From Phycisphaerae bacterium (GTDB lineage Bacteria; Planctomycetota; Phycisphaerae; UBA1845; Fen-1342): a stretch of 64,000 nucleotides of DNA. The notes beneath the pieces were generated by a model that was given only the letters and a program-made list of their open reading frames with translations, searched no databases and was not told where the DNA came from. Below, one piece after another: positions 3,160 to 30,160 of the stretch; the stretch's first letter is position 1, and each line of letters opens with the position of its first letter. The DNA is taken from positions 1 to 64,000 of the forward strand of contig JANQNU010000064.1 of assembly GCA_028279405.1 (NCBI GenBank). The letters are read 5' to 3'. Both the position numbers and the translations under genes were made by a program.

Positions 3160-4356
3160 ATGAGTGGCATCATGAAATCACTGACTGGGTTGGCGCTGAT
3201 GGCGGTTGTGTCGCCGGCGGTCTGGGCGCAGCAGGAGGGGCCGGTGGCTCCGGGCGCGGCGCCGAAGGTCGAGGTAAGCGAGACCGAGTGGGACTTCGGC
3301 ACGGTCTGGCAAGGCGAGAAGGTCAGCAAGAAGATCACGATCAAGAACGTTGGCGAGGCGCCGCTGACGCTGAATGTTCGCAGTTCCTGCGGCTGCACCG
3401 TGCCGACGAAGCCGAAGTCGCCGTTGGGTCCGGGCGAGTCGGACACGTTCGAGATTTCGTACAACACGCTGAAGCGCAAGGGCAAGGCGCGGCAGTCGGT
3501 AACGGTGACGACCAACGATCCGGCGAAGCCGACGGTTCAGATTCGGGTGATGGGCGACGTCAAGGAGATGGTCGAGTTGCTCGCGGTGAACCCGGATACG
3601 GGCAAGACGACGGCACAGGATGCGGTCTATCTCGGTCAGCTCTATGAGGATACCAAGAAGACGATGGTCATGCGGTTGCGACCGGTCTTCACGGAGGCGT
3701 TGGAGTTGCGGCTCAAGCCGGATCAGGACTTCTCGCCGTTCGTGGTGGAGTTCAAGGAGGTCGAGAAGGGCAAGGAGTACGAGCTGTCCGTTTCGACGAA
3801 CCCGCCGATCAGCCTTGATCAGCAGCGTCAGTTCAGCAACAAGAATATCGCGATCGAGACGGGCCGGGAAGGGATGGAGCCGATCAAGGTGCGCGTCCAT
3901 GCGATCGTGTTGCCATCGGTTCATGTTCGTCCGACGCAACTGTACGTGCCGCGGGCCATTCGCAGCCAGTTGAAGCGGATCGTGCGCGTTTCCTACCGGC
4001 CGGACAAGCCGATCAAGATCCTGAGCGCGACGTCGGATCTGCCGGGCGTCGAGGTGCGGGTTGACGATTCGCCGCCGAAGGTCCCGAACGCGCAGATCGC
4101 GTATCACACGATTCACGTCACGTTGCCGGCGAGCAATGACGTCCCGAAGGACGGCGGCAAGATCACGATCCAGACCGACTCGAACGACGAGCGGTACAAG
4201 GAGTTCAGTGTTCCGGTGCGGGTGGTTGCAAGTGGTCGCGATCGCTTCGGCAATCGCACCAAGACGCCGTCGGTCCAGGGCTCGAACCGGAAGTCCACGC
4301 CGAACAAGGAAGCTGAGATCGACATTCGGACCAACAGCGACGACGGTAACGAGTAG
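3160..4356 (+). CDS. DUF1573 domain secreted protein (second of a tandem pair)
   Basis: A 398-residue exported protein, paralogous in design to the gene just upstream. ATG 3160 is chosen because AAGGAG at 3145-3150 sits 9 bases before it; an ATG at 3130 would add ten residues and place the ribosome site inside the gene. A signal peptide ends near VWAQQ. The DUF1573 core is seen in VSETEWDFGTVWQGE and SSCGCTVPTKPKSP. Further beta-rich repeats follow, and the C-terminus is basic and hydrophilic (FGNRTKTPSVQGSNRKS). A strong stem-loop with a pyrimidine-rich tail lies 16 bases after the stop and probably ends the two-gene operon. Confidence 0.85.
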   Translation: MSGIMKSLTGLALMAVVSPAVWAQQEGPVAPGAAPKVEVSETEWDFGTVWQGEKVSKKITIKNVGEAPLTLNVRSSCGCTVPTKPKSPLGPGESDTFEISYNTLKRKGKARQSVTVTTNDPAKPTVQIRVMGDVKEMVELLAVNPDTGKTTAQDAVYLGQLYEDTKKTMVMRLRPVFTEALELRLKPDQDFSPFVVEFKEVEKGKEYELSVSTNPPISLDQQRQFSNKNIAIETGREGMEPIKVRVHAIVLPSVHVRPTQLYVPRAIRSQLKRIVRVSYRPDKPIKILSATSDLPGVEVRVDDSPPKVPNAQIAYHTIHVTLPASNDVPKDGGKITIQTDSNDERYKEFSVPVRVVASGRDRFGNRTKTPSVQGSNRKSTPNKEAEIDIRTNSDDGNE

Positions 4357-10023: not shown

Positions 10024-10058
10024 CACCAACGACCTGCCACTGGTCCTTTTCGCGCATC

Positions 10059-10186
10059 TTGATCCCCTCGCTTGCGCTCGGGGCTCGTTGTGTTAAGTGT
10101 TTGGTTCGCGCCGGGGCCCGTGGCGTAGACACGGGCCTCACAAAGGGAGCTTGCTCCCCGCTCGCTCGCGCTCGCGGCTCGTTGTG
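10059..10186. repeat. Two copies of interspersed repeat family A
   Basis: A short form lies at 10059-10092 (CTCGCTTGCGCTCGGGGCTC then GTTGTG). A longer form at 10115-10186 has a hairpin, CCCGTG then GCGTAGA then CACGGG, followed by GGGAGCTTGCTCCCC and the same CTCG-rich core ending in GTTGTG. Related copies occur at 11335-11407, 18672-18698, 29871-29980 and 30001-30031. Confidence 0.6.
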
Positions 10187-10256
10187 TGCGATGTCTGGAA
10201 GCCTCCGGGGTCCGGGGCAAGGAGCGCCATAGCGAGCCCGGCTTGCTCCCCGATCG

Positions 10257-11144
10257 TCAGTTCGTGACCGAGACCATCACGGGGCCGGTGCCGTCGATGG
10301 TTACGTCGACCATGCCGCTGGTCGGTGACTCAGCGTCATACGAAATCACGAGTGTGCTACCGTCCGAGGTCACGGTGGTCGTTCCGCTTTGCGGCACGAA
10401 GTTCCCGTTGCTCGCCGGGTTGATTACGAGGTCGTCGATTGCGACCGTGAGCGCGCCCGTACCGTCGTCGAGCGCGATCGCGTCGGCGGCGACGGTCAGC
10501 GACCCGTCTGCGTTGACGCTGAGTGACAGCACGCCGGAAGCGGTCGACGTGCCGTTAATGGTGATGTTGAACGTTCCATCGATGGAAACGCCGACCGTGG
10601 CGTTGCCGGCAATGGTGACGGTGGCGCCGCCGGTTACGCTTTGCCCGTCGACGCTGAACGAGCTCAGCTCGATGGTCCCCATGCGGGTCGCTCGGATCAA
10701 CTCGATTTCGATGTCGCCGGCGACTTCGACATTGCCCGTTGCGCCGGCAGTGCAGGCCGGGTTGAAGACGACGCCGATCACAACCTGGGGCACCTCGGGG
10801 GAGTTGATGAACGAAATGTTCGGACACGTTCCGTTGGCGCCGATGAGTCCGAGTCCGCCGAGATTGGTAAAGTCGATGTCGTCGGTCGCGAGTCCGGTCA
10901 GCTGTTGTGCGAACTTCATGAACTCATCGATCACAGTGCTGAGCCGGGCAATGTCCGACCGCTGTGTCGCGCTGAGGTCGGTGTTGCCGTTGTCGTTCGT
11001 GTTCGCGTTCACATTGGTGTTGTTGTTGGTGGTGTTGGCGTTACCGTTGTCGTTGCCGTTGCCGGTCGGCGTCATCGTCGGACAGCCGGCGATCAAGAGC
11101 AACGTCAGAGCACAGGCAAGGAGAGTGCAGCGTAAGCCAATCAT
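10257..11144 (-). CDS. Asn-rich linker lipoprotein of unknown function
   Basis: A 295-residue lipoprotein. The N-terminus MIGLRCTLLACALTLLLIAGC ends in a lipobox (LIAGC), so the mature protein should be lipid-anchored at Cys21. Immediately after comes a low-complexity linker of about 35 residues made of Asn, Gly, Asp and Thr, a spacer style common in planctomycete lipoproteins. The rest is beta-rich with several short repeating strands (GGATVTIAGNATVGVSIDG, SGVLSLSVNADGSLTV, TVTSDGSTLVISYD). No catalytic motif was recognised. It is transcribed opposite to the fibre-like gene, and repeat-rich DNA lies on both sides. Confidence 0.75.
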   Translation of the reverse strand: MIGLRCTLLACALTLLLIAGCPTMTPTGNGNDNGNANTTNNNTNVNANTNDNGNTDLSATQRSDIARLSTVIDEFMKFAQQLTGLATDDIDFTNLGGLGLIGANGTCPNISFINSPEVPQVVIGVVFNPACTAGATGNVEVAGDIEIELIRATRMGTIELSSFSVDGQSVTGGATVTIAGNATVGVSIDGTFNITINGTSTASGVLSLSVNADGSLTVAADAIALDDGTGALTVAIDDLVINPASNGNFVPQSGTTTVTSDGSTLVISYDAESPTSGMVDVTIDGTGPVMVSVTN

Positions 11145-11334
11145 CAGATGACCTCTCGTATGGACAGCGGTCGGTGCGGCGCTGTTGGCCTCATGTCGTT
11201 CGTCGCTAGTGTATACATTGCGCTCAATGATAGGTCGCGGGGTGTTCGGTCGCCACCTATGGGGGCGATCCGGTTGAAGAGGTCCGCGGTGCTGTCAGTT
11301 CCCCACCCCAAGGGGGGGACCAGGCTACCTCATC

Positions 11335-11407
11335 GAGGGAGCTTGCTCCCCTCGCTCGCGCTCGGGGCTCGTTGTTCGACCGCTCGCTCGCGCTCGCGGC
11401 TCGTAGT
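11335..11407 (+). repeat. Interspersed repeat family A, double copy
   Basis: GGGAGCTTGCTCCC, CTCGCTCGCGCTCGGGGCTC and GTTGTT are followed at once by a second core, CGCTCGCTCGCGCTCGCGGC. Same family as 10115-10186. Confidence 0.6.
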
Positions 11408-11452
11408 CGGCTGCCATGGGACGTCAGTGCGAGCCCGGATCGCAAGCGACGG

Positions 11453-18591: not shown

Positions 18592-18772
18592 ACTGGGTGG
18601 CACTGGCGGCTTGTCCGCCAGTGTTAGGAACGTACGATTACTTGGGTGAGGCAGGCGTTTCGCCGGCCATTGACCGCTCGCTTGCGCTCGCGGCTCGCTT
18701 CGGCGCCCCACGGCTTTGGGCGAGTGGCACTGACGCGCGGCGGGTGGCACTGGCGGCTTGTCCGCCAGTGTT
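18592..18772 (+). repeat. Two copies of interspersed repeat family C, one family A core between them
   Basis: Each family C copy contains the perfect stem CACTGGCGG (18601-18609; 18748-18756), loop CTTGT, and CCGCCAGTG (18615-18623; 18762-18770), flanked on the left by GGTGG and on the right by TT. Between them lies a family A core (18672-18698, CGCTCGCTTGCGCTCGCGGC). The reverse complement of family C occurs in the gspK coding region at 25188-25218. Confidence 0.7.
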
Positions 18773-22301: not shown

Positions 22302-23027
22302 ATGAACACGGACCGTCCATTGGGGATTCGATTCGCGCGCCCGGCCCGCTTTGCGGCGGCGGGCGTGACGCTCTTCGAAATCCTGCTGGTGCTGGTGATT
22401 CTGGCCGTGCTGGCCGTGCTGTTTCTCGGTAACCTCGACGTGCTTGCGCGCAGTCGTGACCTGACGGAATCGGTCACACGGATAAAGGCGGTGCTGGCGA
22501 TGTGTCGCGCTCAGGCGATGGCGACGTCACAGCAGTTCCGTATCCGAATCCATGCGGACGGTTCGATGACGCTCGTGCAGCAGGGGGACCCGGTTCGGGC
22601 GCCGCATATGTTCACGCTGGTCAACGACGACTGGGCGCGGATGCGGTTTCTCGTGGAGGACGTGTGGGTCGATTCGATCCTGCCGTTGCCGAGTGGCCCG
22701 CCGCCGATCAGGGTCGAGAACGACGAACTGGATCTCGATGCCTTCGACGACCACCAGTCGATTCCGGTGACCGAGCTCGAACAGCCGTTCGAGTTGTTGT
22801 TCGAGCCGGATGGTTCGAGCACATCGGTGCGGCTGTTCCTGCGGGACTCCAGTGGGCGCGGCGTGCAATTGACGCTCGACGGTCGGGTCGGTCGTGTCGA
22901 GTTGGAAGAGCTCGAGATCGAACTCGAAGATCTGGAACGGCCTGAGCCCTTGCCCGACGAGGATAAGATTGCTGATCTCTATACCTCGGAGCAGGTGAAG
23001 GAATTCCTGGAGACGCCAAGACAATGA
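22302..23027 (+). CDS. gspH: Minor pseudopilin GspH-like
   Basis: A 241-residue type IV pilin-like protein. A leader of 21 residues ends in AAAG and is followed by VTLFEILLVLVILAVLAVLF with Glu at +5. After the membrane helix the sequence fits GspH: VTRIKAVLAMCRAQAMATSQ and QFRIRIHADGSMTLVQQGD. A long acidic tail (ELEELEIELEDLERPEP) precedes the end and makes it longer than the usual 170-200 residues. Its stop overlaps the gspI start (ATGA). Confidence 0.8.
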   Translation: MNTDRPLGIRFARPARFAAAGVTLFEILLVLVILAVLAVLFLGNLDVLARSRDLTESVTRIKAVLAMCRAQAMATSQQFRIRIHADGSMTLVQQGDPVRAPHMFTLVNDDWARMRFLVEDVWVDSILPLPSGPPPIRVENDELDLDAFDDHQSIPVTELEQPFELLFEPDGSSTSVRLFLRDSSGRGVQLTLDGRVGRVELEELEIELEDLERPEPLPDEDKIADLYTSEQVKEFLETPRQ

Positions 23028-24220
23028 ACGGTTCAGACAAGCGATTGCCGGGCGTCCACAGTGGCGGAAAGGCGGCTATGCCTCTTCCGGCGCGGTGTGA
23101 CGCGCGTTTTGGTCGGGCGGCGCTGCGACGCGGCGGACTGTTGCTCGAGGTGCTCCTGGCGCTGGTCATCATGGTTGCCTCGCTTGCGATGCTCGGGTCG
23201 CAGTTGGTTTCGGGCCTCAAGTTGGTCCAGTTCGGAGATCAGCAGACCCGCGCGAACGAACTCGCCGAGCGGATGCTGGCGCTGCTCGAACTCGATCGGA
23301 ACGTGATGGCGCGGGTGTTCGTGGATGAGTCGCGCGACGGCGACTTTGGCGACGAGTTTCCTGGTTACTTCTGGCGGATCGATCTGGAGCCCGTGCTGGA
23401 TATGGACGGCCTGGGGCGGCTAACGCTGGAGATTCTCTACGACGAGAACCTTGACAGTCCGAGTATCGACGACGCGAAGGTCGTTCGCACGCTGGCGATG
23501 CTGAAGGCCGATCCCGGGCGGATCAATTTCGAGGAAGATTTCGGGCTCGATGCCGAGCAGGTGGAGCAACTGGGGGCGGTGATGCCGCTTGCCGGGCTCG
23601 ATCCGAACAACTTCGACCCTGGAGCGCTCGCCGCGCTACCGACCGAGCAGTTGCTCGAACTGCTTCCCGCAATCATGCCGTTGCTCCAGCAGTTTCTCGG
23701 CAACGCATTGCCGGCGGGGGCGGAGAATATGTCGCCGGAACAGTTGGTGGAGTTTCTGCAGCAGCAGGCGCCGGGCGCCCCGGGTGGGCCTGGCAATCCA
23801 GGCGTACCGGGTCCTGGCGGTGTGCCGGGAGGTGGCGGTACCGGCGACAACGGAGATTACACGATTGATGATCTCTTGCGCTTGCGCGACGAACTCGGTG
23901 GCAGTGACCCCGGAGCCGGGCCGGCGCCCGGAGGTGGGCGCGGCGGCCGAGGTGGCGGTGGCGGTGGTCCAGGGATTGGTCCCGGTCGAGGCGGCAACGG
24001 CGGAGGCGGCGGTCCCGGTCGAGGCGGTAACGGCGGAGGGGGCGGTCCCGGTCGTGGCGGCAACGGCGGAGGCGGATTTGGAGGGGGGCCACGTGGCGGT
24101 GGTGGCGGCGATGGTCCGGTTCAGCCGTCAGGGGTCGACGACAACGGCGAGCCGCAGTACACGATCGAAGACCTGATTCGGCTGCGGGACGAGCTCAATC
24201 GCCGAGCGGACGGCGGCTGA
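23024..24220 (+). CDS. gspI: Minor pseudopilin GspI-like with giant glycine-rich C-terminal extension
   Basis: A 398-residue protein, about three times the usual GspI length of 120. Start is ATG 23024 inside the gspH stop; ATG 23078 is an alternative. The leader ends in ALRRG (residue 37), then GLLLEVLLALVIMVASLAML with Glu at +5, then the pilin helix QTRANELAERMLALLE and a beta region to about residue 150. The extension has a helical, Leu/Gln-rich part (LEQLLELLPAIMPLLQQFL-type), a collagen-like GxP stretch, a 33-bp-period Gly-rich repeat and two copies of a 13-residue motif, YTIDDLLRLRDEL (279-291) and YTIEDLIRLRDEL (379-391), that bracket the glycine region. What the extension does is unknown; it may be flexible and surface-exposed. 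Confidence 0.75.
   Translation: MNGSDKRLPGVHSGGKAAMPLPARCDARFGRAALRRGGLLLEVLLALVIMVASLAMLGSQLVSGLKLVQFGDQQTRANELAERMLALLELDRNVMARVFVDESRDGDFGDEFPGYFWRIDLEPVLDMDGLGRLTLEILYDENLDSPSIDDAKVVRTLAMLKADPGRINFEEDFGLDAEQVEQLGAVMPLAGLDPNNFDPGALAALPTEQLLELLPAIMPLLQQFLGNALPAGAENMSPEQLVEFLQQQAPGAPGGPGNPGVPGPGGVPGGGGTGDNGDYTIDDLLRLRDELGGSDPGAGPAPGGGRGGRGGGGGGPGIGPGRGGNGGGGGPGRGGNGGGGGPGRGGNGGGGFGGGPRGGGGGDGPVQPSGVDDNGEPQYTIEDLIRLRDELNRRADGG
23978..24076 (+). repeat. 33-bp tandem repeat within gspI
   Basis: Three in-frame units start at 23978, 24011 and 24044. Each encodes a glycine-rich 11-mer of the type GPGRGGNGGGG. The period is a multiple of three, so variation in copy number keeps the frame. Confidence 0.8.
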
Positions 24221-24321: not shown

Positions 24322-25158
24322 ATGGGCATGAACGCAACCAGCCGAGCACGACGCGGATTGACGCTGATGGAGGTGATCATCTCGGTCGCCCTGATCGCGT
24401 TACTGATGACCGCGCTGATGACTTTCTACTGGGAGAGTGCGAAGGTTCGCGACCAGGCCGCGGCGCAGGCGGACCGTACGCAGATCGCACGGCAGGTGCT
24501 CAACCATATTGCCGCCGAGCTGCGGGGGTGCGTCGGTTTTGATCAGGTGGGGTTTCCGGTGGAGCAGCGGCTACGGGGCACGCGACGTGAGATCTCGTTT
24601 CTCACGACGGCGCTTCCGTCGCCTGAACAGTATCAGGTCTTTCGAGAGACCGATGACCTTCCGCCGGGGCATCATGATCTGCGGCAGGTTGATTACAAGC
24701 TATGGATCGATGAGGACGAACAAACCGAAGATGGCGAACCGGTCGTGGGCGGGATTCTGCGGAAGATCAAACGCACGCTCAACCAGTTCATCGTCGAAGA
24801 GGACGAGCCGGAGCAACTGCGGACAGACTTGTGGTCGCACGAGCTGGCATACCTCGAATTTCGCTACTTCGACGGCGCCGAGTGGGATATCCAGTGGGAC
24901 ATTACCGAAGGAAACTCGTTGCCGCAGCTGGTGCAGGTGATCGTCGGCTTCGAGTCGGTGACGGCCGAAGAGTTGGAGGACGCCGACCTGCAGGAGAACC
25001 CGCTCAACGCGACGGATCGGATCGAAGAATGGCACCCCGATCGTTATAGCGTCATCGTCCGGATCCCGGCAGCCGACCGGTTCTTCTCCAGTCGGTTCCA
25101 GCGTGTGCAGCAGCAACTGCTCGGCGACACGCTCGGCGTGGAGGGGCTCCAGCCATGA
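24322..25158 (+). CDS. gspJ: Minor pseudopilin GspJ-like
   Basis: A 278-residue type IV pilin-like protein. ATG 24322 gives MGMNATSRARRG then LTLMEVIISVALIALLMTAL with Glu at +5; ATG 24328 is an equally good start. GspJ-type features follow: DRTQIARQVLNHIAAELRGC, REISFLTTALPS, HELAYLEFRYFDGAEWDIQW. It is 102 bases after gspI, and its stop codon overlaps the gspK start in ATGA. Length is a little above the usual 200-220. GspJ forms the pseudopilus tip with GspI and GspK. Confidence 0.82.
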   Translation: MGMNATSRARRGLTLMEVIISVALIALLMTALMTFYWESAKVRDQAAAQADRTQIARQVLNHIAAELRGCVGFDQVGFPVEQRLRGTRREISFLTTALPSPEQYQVFRETDDLPPGHHDLRQVDYKLWIDEDEQTEDGEPVVGGILRKIKRTLNQFIVEEDEPEQLRTDLWSHELAYLEFRYFDGAEWDIQWDITEGNSLPQLVQVIVGFESVTAEELEDADLQENPLNATDRIEEWHPDRYSVIVRIPAADRFFSSRFQRVQQQLLGDTLGVEGLQP

Positions 25159-27011
25159 TGCGGAATCGCCTTCGAGTAGAACGTCCAAACACTGGCGGAC
25201 AAGCCGCCAGTGCCACCCGTCTGCGTCGGTCCCCCACCCCAAGATGGGGTGGGGCACCCGTTCTCCGAAAAGAGGAGTTAGCGAGGCAACGTCCCAGCAT
25301 CGGCGGACAAGTTGCCAGTGCCACCCGGCCGCGTCCGTTCGCCAGTCCAAGATGGGGTGGGGCACTTCGGCGCGCGGTGATCTTGCCGGTCGTGTTGGTC
25401 GTGATCGGGCTTTTGGCGCTGACGATGGCCGGGTTCGTGTTCTTTATCCGTGCCGAGACCGCGGGTATGGCGGCCCATGGTGATCAGCAGCAGGCGCGGC
25501 TGGCGGCGGAGTCGGGGTTGGAGGAGCTGGTCGCGGTGATCCGGGCGAATCGGCACGACGTCACGGCTTGGTTCGACGTTCCGACTCGTTTTCGGCATGC
25601 GCTGGTCTGGTCTGATGCGTATCTGCGTGAGGGCGATCCGGTGCGCGAGGCGGGGACGCGTGAACGGTTGTTCGAAGCGGGCGCGGCGCAGCCGGCGCCG
25701 GCATGGCGGTACAGTATCGTCGCACCCCTGGACACGGGGACGTTGGACGTTTTTCGCTACGGGGCAACGCCGGAGACCGCGCGGCTCAACCTGAACACGT
25801 CGACGCCGCAACAGATCGAGCGGTTGTTGACGCCTTTGCTGCTTGCTTTGCAGATCGAGAACCCGCAGGACCTGATCAGCGCGCTATTGGATTGGCGCGA
25901 TGGTGATGACGAAACGCTGCCGGGTGGTGCGGAGAACGACTGGTATAACACGCTTACGCCGCCGTATATGTGCAAGAATGCGCCCTTCGACACCGTTGAG
26001 GAGTTGTTGCTGGTGAGGGGGTTTTCGGCGGTGGCGCTGTATGGGGAGGACACGAATCGCAACGGTCTGCTCGATCCGAACGAAGACGACGGTGATGAGT
26101 CGTTCCCGTTCTTCGACAACGGTGACGGTGTGCTGAACCGCGGTATCGCGCCTTACTTGACCGTCCACGGTCGCGAGCCGGACACCGCGCTGGACAACAA
26201 GCAGCGCATCAACCTGCTGGCGCAAGCGGGGGTAATAACGGCGCAGATTCAGGATCAGATCGAGGAAGAGGAGCTGAGCGCCGCGACGATCCAGTGGATC
26301 CTCTCGCTGAAGCAGCAGAACTTCAACTTCGCGCAACTCGGCAGTCCGGCGGAGCTGTATCAACAGTTCGGGGATACGAGTGCGTTCGTTGACGCGGAGG
26401 GGAATCCGATACCGCCGCCGACGCAACGGCAGGAGTTGGCGAACAGTCCGGTGACGCTGGAAGAGATGGCCGTGATCATGGACCGCTTCACGACGCGCAC
26501 CGAGCAGCAGGGCGCGGGCGGTCAGCCGACATCCCAGCCGACGTCTCAACCCACGTCGCAGCCGACCTCACAGCCGACGCCGACCGTGCCAGTCGGGCAG
26601 GGCGTGGCGTATCAGCAGGGGATGATTATCGGACTGGTGAATATCAACGTGGCGCCGCCTGAGGTTTTGGGGTTGGTTCCGGGGATGACGCCGGAGGCGC
26701 TGGGTTCGATTATTGCGACGCGTGGGACGTTGGAGGCGGCGGCGCTGCGGACGACGGCGTGGCCGTTGGCGTCGGGAGCGGTGGACACTGCAACCTATCA
26801 TGCGATTGCCCCGTATATCACTACGAAGGCGTATCAGTACCGCGTGGAGGTGCTGGGGTACGCGGATCACGTAAAGACGGCTCGGCGGTTCGAGTGGGTG
26901 ATCGAGATGATCGGCCAGATTCACCAGGTCAAGTACTTTCGCGAGCTGACCGGCTTGGGGATCGCGTGGCCGATTGATGACGATACGCGTGTGACGGCGG
27001 TTGCTCAATAG
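25155..27011 (+). CDS. gspK: Pseudopilin GspK with an interspersed-repeat insertion in its leader
   Basis: A 618-residue minor pseudopilin. The start ATG 25155 overlaps the gspJ stop. Residues 10-72 are encoded by two copies of a family B+C intergenic repeat with a 108-bp period (IGGQ/TGGQ, ASATR, PRWGGA in both). The membrane segment begins only at about residue 73: LRRAVILPVVLVVIGLLALT, normally near residue 10. The rest is a normal GspK: TARLNLNTSTPQQIERLL and the ISALLDWRDGDDE block, the INLLAQAG and VNINVAPPEVLGLVPGM helix-hairpin-helix-like region. A PTSQ tandem repeat lies at about 456-475. No in-frame ATG, GTG or TTG with a ribosome site removes the insertion. The extended leader may be processed off, or may block prepilin peptidase. 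Confidence 0.85.
   Translation: MMRNRLRVERPNTGGQAASATRLRRSPTPRWGGAPVLRKEELARQRPSIGGQVASATRPRPFASPRWGGALRRAVILPVVLVVIGLLALTMAGFVFFIRAETAGMAAHGDQQQARLAAESGLEELVAVIRANRHDVTAWFDVPTRFRHALVWSDAYLREGDPVREAGTRERLFEAGAAQPAPAWRYSIVAPLDTGTLDVFRYGATPETARLNLNTSTPQQIERLLTPLLLALQIENPQDLISALLDWRDGDDETLPGGAENDWYNTLTPPYMCKNAPFDTVEELLLVRGFSAVALYGEDTNRNGLLDPNEDDGDESFPFFDNGDGVLNRGIAPYLTVHGREPDTALDNKQRINLLAQAGVITAQIQDQIEEEELSAATIQWILSLKQQNFNFAQLGSPAELYQQFGDTSAFVDAEGNPIPPPTQRQELANSPVTLEEMAVIMDRFTTRTEQQGAGGQPTSQPTSQPTSQPTSQPTPTVPVGQGVAYQQGMIIGLVNINVAPPEVLGLVPGMTPEALGSIIATRGTLEAAALRTTAWPLASGAVDTATYHAIAPYITTKAYQYRVEVLGYADHVKTARRFEWVIEMIGQIHQVKYFRELTGLGIAWPIDDDTRVTAVAQ
25182..25365 (+). repeat. 108-bp-period duplication of repeat families B and C inside gspK
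   Basis: Copy 1 spans 25182-25257 and copy 2 spans 25290-25365, in the same frame. About 64 of 76 positions match by eye. Copy 1 keeps the perfect family C stem: CACTGGCGG (25190-25198) and CCGCCAGTG (25204-25212). Each copy ends with the family B half AAGATGGGGTGGGGCAC. Copy 2 has lost the stem symmetry. Confidence 0.85.
26522..26583 (+). repeat. PTSQ tandem repeat within gspK
   Basis: About five short in-frame units encode PTSQ in tandem (GGQ then PTSQPTSQPTSQPTSQ, ending PTPTVP). It likely forms a flexible linker between two halves of GspK. Confidence 0.8.
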
Positions 27012-29816: not shown

Positions 29817-30160
29817 GCGAGACGCGTCCCCCACCCTAATGGGTGGGCACCTTGCTCGACTCGCGCCCCCTTGATCCCCTCGCTGGCGTTCGGGGCTCGT
29901 TGTGTGGCCGGGAGCGCCAGTGCGAGCCGCGAGCGGGGAGCAAGCTCTCTCTGCGAAGCCTGTGTCTACGCCACAGGCCACGACGAGAACCCTACACTGA
30001 CCACAACGAGCCGCGAGCGCGAGCGAGCGGTTAAGGTCGATAACGGGCGAGACGCGCGCCTCACCCTGGGTTTTGATCGTGCCCCAGAGCGATTTGGTGC
30101 AGGTGTCCCAGGACGGTTTGGTGCCCCAGGGTTCTACCCGGGTTCGCTGGCGTTTTCGCG
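29817..30160. other. Intergenic repeat stretch between convergent genes
   Basis: No gene was found in these 344 bases. They hold a family B copy (29826-29853, CCCCCACCCTAATGGGTGGG), a family A copy (29871-29904), an inverted family A copy with its hairpin (29921-29980, CTGTGTCTACGCCACAGG), and another inverted family A core (30001-30031). The genes on either side converge. Confidence 0.6.

Follow-up and report, generated by a model that had tools for sequence, protein, structure and literature searches.

Palindromic repeats probably captured in frame, and more than once, in the cleavable leader of the pseudopilin GspK in Phycisphaerae

The gspK gene of a Phycisphaerae bacterium (assembly GCA_028279405.1) opens with a 74-codon leader that contains two copies of a palindromic repeat dispersed through the same genome. 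We consider it very likely that these copies are captured REP elements of the genome's own RAYT which landed behind gspJ and were tolerated in a cleavable leader, and that the same happened independently elsewhere with unrelated repeats. The gene lies in the window, by which we mean the whole stretch of 64,000 nucleotides that was analysed (contig JANQNU010000064.1, positions 1 to 64,000 of the forward strand), and its features are placed as listed in Table 1.

Table 1. Features of the gspJ-gspK junction, the repeat-bearing leader and the intergenic copies of palindrome A in the window.
Feature	Position	Strand	Basis or remark
gspJ (pseudopilin)	24322..25158	+	N_methyl match; TGA overlaps gspK start (ATGATGA)
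Shine-Dalgarno-like GGAGGGG, 8 nt upstream of ATG 25155	25140..25146	+	Sequence; SD-like motif at same place in 24/26 family genomes
gspK, 618 aa	25155..27011	+	Pfam T2SSK_1st, 61 bits; NCBIfam T2SS_GspK, 54 bits, under its cut-off of 130
GspK leader, 74 codons	25155..25376	+	Net charge +14; modelled as disordered
Repeat unit 1, composite of A palindrome and B hairpin	25180..25257	+	
Palindrome A, CACTGGCGGACAAGCCGCCAGTG, perfect copy of genome-wide REP	25190..25212	+	
Hairpin B, CCCCCACCCCAAGATGGGGTGGGG	25231..25254	+	
Spacer of 30 bp separating the units	25258..25287	+	
Repeat unit 2, diverged	25288..25365	+	A core 25298-25320, 4 mismatches
RRA↓V, predicted prepilin peptidase site ahead of hydrophobic helix	25368..25379	+	Ala or Gly at -1 in 26/26 family genomes
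Palindrome A, intergenic copy	18601..18623	-	Same 23-mer as 25190-25212, opposite orientation, between predicted genes
Palindrome A, intergenic copy	18748..18770	-	Same 23-mer as 25190-25212, opposite orientation, between predicted genes

The gene follows gspJ in the gsp order, with GspF, GspG and the N_methyl protein GspJ as its neighbours, and carries the T2SSK domain. Its score with the NCBIfam equivalog model T2SS_GspK misses that model's threshold; because the lineage is divergent, the name GspK is given for the Pfam domain and the gene order, not for the equivalog score. A variable region of GspK contains a low-complexity (TSQP)n insert at 26520-26590. The third pseudopilin-like ORF, at 23024-24220 and probably GspI, has a leader some 37 residues long, and its C-terminal half is rich in Gly and very long.

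The N-terminus follows the pattern of class III (prepilin) signal peptides, which are processed by a prepilin peptidase (PMC4471445, PMC10191384): a basic leader is followed by Ala at -1 and then by a hydrophobic helix, which starts at residue 75 by sequence (RRA↓VILPVVLVV) and at residue 76 in the AlphaFold model. Ala or Gly at -1 before such a helix is a feature of prepilin cleavage sites (PMC10191384) and, in the general prepilin model, the leader stays cytoplasmic and is then removed by the prepilin peptidase (PMC4471445), for which this genome has one detectable gene/domain. Hydropathy is positive in none of the 15-residue windows of the leader, and its pLDDT is 30-38 in a GspK model that is of low confidence as a whole (mean pLDDT 54). 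At 74 residues, however, the leader is well outside the 6-26 aa of the class III signal peptides reviewed, and also outside the range of its repeat-free relatives, since 22 of the 26 family genomes have leaders of 3-26 aa without a repeat. The first-pass annotation, made from the sequence alone, had put the addition at 63 residues, which is right in substance (with a family median of about 8, the excess is about 65). The finding that it named as its refutation, a long leader shared by all relatives, is contradicted by these short leaders.

The two repeat units described there are confirmed. Each is 78 bp long, they are identical at 65 of 78 positions, and they recur with a period of 108 bp, exactly 36 codons; unit 2 retains a degenerate hairpin B at 25339-25362. 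The perfect stem of copy 1 does recur in intergenic DNA at the two places that had been named, and the reading frame, which is open from ATG 25155, runs through both copies as claimed. Between the two units, eight codons differ nonsynonymously and two synonymously, which gives no sign of peptide conservation, and the sequence of the leader peptide appears to be unconstrained.

Palindrome A belongs to a large family in this genome. With up to two mismatches it is found at 138 sites in 5.6 Mb, against 2 for a reversed-pattern control, and a 20-mer of A has 84 exact copies (control, 0). An exact search of the rest of the family found this 20-mer ten times in one genome (G015) and once each in G013 and G018, and it was absent from the remaining 23 genomes. 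We mapped 110 copies on 69 loci plus the window: 103 are intergenic and 7 lie within predicted genes (gspK not counted), 43 are in convergent and 11 in divergent gene surroundings, and 56 sit in clusters, where copies are accompanied by other palindrome modules, as in mosaic elements. The element measures about 41 bp, and both A and B are free of stop codons in six of six frames. These properties agree with the description of a REP as a palindrome of 20-40 nt with about 100 or more copies, mainly extragenic. For eight further copies in this genome, the frame ahead of an adjacent gene is also open; most of these genes have an ordinary start downstream of the copy, and we do not count the eight as captures.

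REP/RAYT systems are defined by a RAYT gene that lies between two inverted REP copies (PMC2817692). A family search of the present genome finds one Y1 transposase domain (C30:48773-48970), and its only RAYT gene (L097:3713-4282, minus strand; NCBIfam NF047646, 87.4 bits, cut-off 80) is bracketed by inverted copies of A (L097 3676 on the minus and 4316 on the plus strand, about 12 and 33 bp away), which identifies A as a REP-type element. The RAYT ortholog of G015 (55-59% identity) is bracketed by A in the same way. A is thus presumably mobilised by the genome's own RAYT. The arrangement resembles the REPtron (Nunvar et al. 2010, PMC2817692) in its small palindrome with more than 100 copies, mostly extragenic and clustered, and in the inverted pair around the RAYT, but differs in its planctomycete host (Phycisphaerae), in some of its copies being coding, and in its tag, as the other strand of A reads GGGTGG-CACTGGCGG... 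and so carries GTGG, as in some Pseudomonas REPs, and not GTAG.

Several minor observations concern these elements. The G015 RAYT ortholog (L148:3258-3903) is split by an A-type repeat at 3611, with its halves in different frames. Beside the RAYT gene (L097:4393-4414) and near several A copies there is a variant palindrome, CACTGGTAGCTTGCTACCAGTG, which shares the GGGTGG flank of A, and a second interspersed module, CCCCTCGCTTGCGCTCGGGGCTCG, is a frequent neighbour of A in clusters (10058-11414, 18672-18697 and 29870-29910 of the window).

Three further genomes, from three other genera of the family (G015, G018 and G003), have palindromic repeats in frame at the same place in gspK, and these are genome-specific and unrelated. 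The G015 leader has two copies of GGGACGGGCGTCTCGCCCGTCC plus GGAACGGGCAAGATGCCCGTTCC, one slightly diverged; that of G018 has AGCCGCAGGCTTCAGCCTGCG with GCGGACTGAAGTCCGC; and that of G003 has GTGCCACGGCTGTGTCAGCCGTGCC. The inserts match their own genomes at 56 (G015), 30 (G018) and 19 (G003) places. Repeats are present in precisely the four longest leaders of the family, which measure 38, 51, 72 and 72 aa when the -1 residue is left out of the count. On the GspK tree, which is poorly resolved, the repeat label needs four separate changes, and the tree neighbours of the present genome and of G015 have 8-aa leaders. Judged from these comparisons of sequence, repeat capture in the GspK leader is independent and recurrent across genera. 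The leader repeats of G015, G018 and G003 were not found near the 10 family RAYT genes that were sampled, so bracketing of a RAYT holds for element A only. An alignment-based contig scan returned 13 loci, 12 of which were GspK genes already in the genome set; it placed the G003 gene on JACZRH010000179.1 and the G018 gene on JAUWXH010000044.1, and the remaining matches were labelled Phycisphaerae or Phycisphaerales. A contig scan with a single GspK protein gave no match.

A fifth case is found outside the family, in one genus of family f7, where the leaders of G106 and G108 both contain palindromes of the CACCGGTTTGCAACCGGTG type; allowing up to two mismatches, these have 158 sites in the G106 genome and 120 in that of G108. 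In a third genome of that genus, G107, the repeat is absent and the leader is not long. G106 has a second partial copy with a 36-bp period that is missing in G108, and the two leaders differ by 39 bp, in frame; apparent in-frame growth within a leader is visible in this comparison only. The leader region of G067 includes a (CCATTTT)n array for which 257 sites exist in the genome, and the start of this gspK is not fixed by gspJ overlap in the stretch examined; short tandem arrays occupy the leader regions of G038, G059 and G062, and a palindrome that of G091. Across 87 genomes, the 120 bp immediately ahead of the helix show a modest excess of inverted and tandem repeats, stems of at least 8 numbering 5 versus 1 and 1 in gspJ controls.

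The first-pass annotation had proposed that a mobile repeat was captured in gspK and then duplicated. The capture stands, in that an interspersed REP-type repeat is now coding in the GspK leader. The duplication does not follow, since tandem pairs are ordinary for A and the tandem layout is therefore no evidence of duplication after capture: 24 same-orientation pairs lie 87-194 bp apart, the gspK pair among them, with a spacing divisible by three in 10, and an A-B tandem of period 100 sits between genes at C91. The two copies in gspK may have come in together, or they may be a product of the growth that REP clusters usually show. A single capture followed by a 108-bp tandem duplication within the gene would be compatible with the captured-REP reading and concerns event order only, an order that would be readable with close relatives; the period of exactly 36 codons speaks for it, as does the in-frame second partial copy in G106 with no counterpart in G108, and given how common such pairs are outside gspK we regard it as plausible while leaning somewhat against it.

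Whether the repeats are translated depends on the start codon. The in-frame starts ahead of the helix are ATG 25155, ATG 25158 and GTG 25377, and we infer translation of the leader from ATG 25155 or 25158. A gspK gene was found in 26 genomes of the family, and in every one it starts between -6 and +1 nt from the gspJ stop. Were gspK instead to start at GTG 25377, the 218 bp after gspJ would be a normal REP-containing spacer between genes and the repeats would be untranslated, as is the case for most N-terminal REPs in annotations. Intergenic location is the rule for REPs, and a published survey cautions that N-terminal REPs are in many cases the product of wrong annotation (PMC3733652). Our home-made gene finder likewise puts the start at GTG 25377, the coding statistics of the leader being weak; it chose this codon because repeat DNA has non-coding statistics, and start calling of this kind can truncate genuine leaders. 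The GTG, however, lacks the GGAGG-type motif found ahead of ATG 25155, and starting there would cost the protein its basic residues and the cleavage site with Ala at -1, although relatives conserve both the basic residues and Ala/Gly(-1). In G018 there is no alternative start at all ahead of the helix, whereas in G015 and G003 start codons are present within the repeat itself. Since the elements are stop-free, an open frame alone is weak evidence of translation, and for this genome's leader by itself its chance is 0.38. All four repeat-bearing leaders of the family are nevertheless open and in frame with a start that overlaps gspJ (chance about 9e-4 by dinucleotide shuffles). We consider the untranslated spacer unlikely.

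The captured leader can be accommodated in a simple mechanism. REPs prefer the vicinity of gene 3' ends (PMC3733652) and would settle preferentially just past stop codons; here the start of gspK and the stop of gspJ overlap, so that a REP behind gspJ would end up in the first codons of gspK. Most insertions at this point would break the gene, and those that keep the frame would survive, which should be possible for elements that are stop-free in six frames and encode a basic, unstructured peptide. The added segment precedes the RR(A/G) site, where the prepilin peptidase should cut it off, so that the mature pseudopilin would be unchanged. Insertion preference is thus the probable cause of the capture, removal by prepilin peptidase is expected by analogy with other prepilins, and the captured leader is presumably neutral. 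Tolerance, and not a new function, is suggested by the retained RRA site, by the leader's net positive charge and by the fact that captures recur. Selection might instead have kept the repeats, with hairpins acting in the gspJK mRNA or a long leader tuning the translation or processing of gspK. The RNA does fold moderately better than shuffles (z -2.5), and repeats are found at the same junction in several genera, but the majority of relatives manage without them, the repeats are unrelated in sequence, the palindrome is lost in copy 2 and the codon differences between the copies show no sign of a conserved peptide. We consider a selected function quite improbable.

Translated REPs and Rickettsia palindromic elements are already known (PMC3733652, PMC10969869). 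The intragenic GTAG/CGTC REPs (PMC3733652, 2013) include REPs and REP dimers in frame inside genes, some of them at protein ends, but their host genes are scattered, with many in DNA repair, and the N-terminal cases are doubted. Here, by contrast, it is one leader of one gene that holds unrelated repeats in several genera, behind a conserved start codon. The Rickettsia palindromic elements (Ogata et al. 2000, in review PMC10969869) are likewise fused in frame to host proteins; they are about 150 bp long with about half of them in genes, whereas element A is about 41 bp and more than 90% intergenic, and so is not of that class. A limited literature search found no report of the independent capture of unrelated repeats in one cleavable leader, and repeated capture of this kind appears to be new.

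The locus amounts to a natural replicate experiment, with several unrelated repeats at one site, one conserved start codon and one cleavable segment. Known in-frame REP insertions look scattered and the N-terminal ones are suspected misannotations, and the gspK locus makes the survival of palindromes in genes testable. It also suggests where mobile repeats may enter proteins harmlessly, namely in a part of the protein that is probably removed in any case. More tentatively, the stop/start overlap with a cleaved-leader gene could be a recurrent landing pad, where mobile and tandem repeats of unrelated sequence repeatedly become part of the proteome across Phycisphaerae; this reading is conditioned on gspK, which was noticed after the fact and was the sole gene compared across genomes. 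If it is true, selfish palindromes would have a general way into proteins through ends that are discarded, such as prepilin leaders and PEP-CTERM tails.

Repeat-derived ends were also seen in other proteins. A DUF3466/HAF-repeat protein (L094:2813-4018) has a PEP-CTERM-like end, PEPASFWLLASLLLPALARRRK, and a C-terminal tail, GGTGGLSASVRSAR, that is encoded by palindrome A, again at an end of a typically cleaved kind. An RlmL-like methyltransferase and a GT87 glycosyltransferase (L103:4018-5283 and L124:3951-5480) have repeat-derived C-terminal tails as well.
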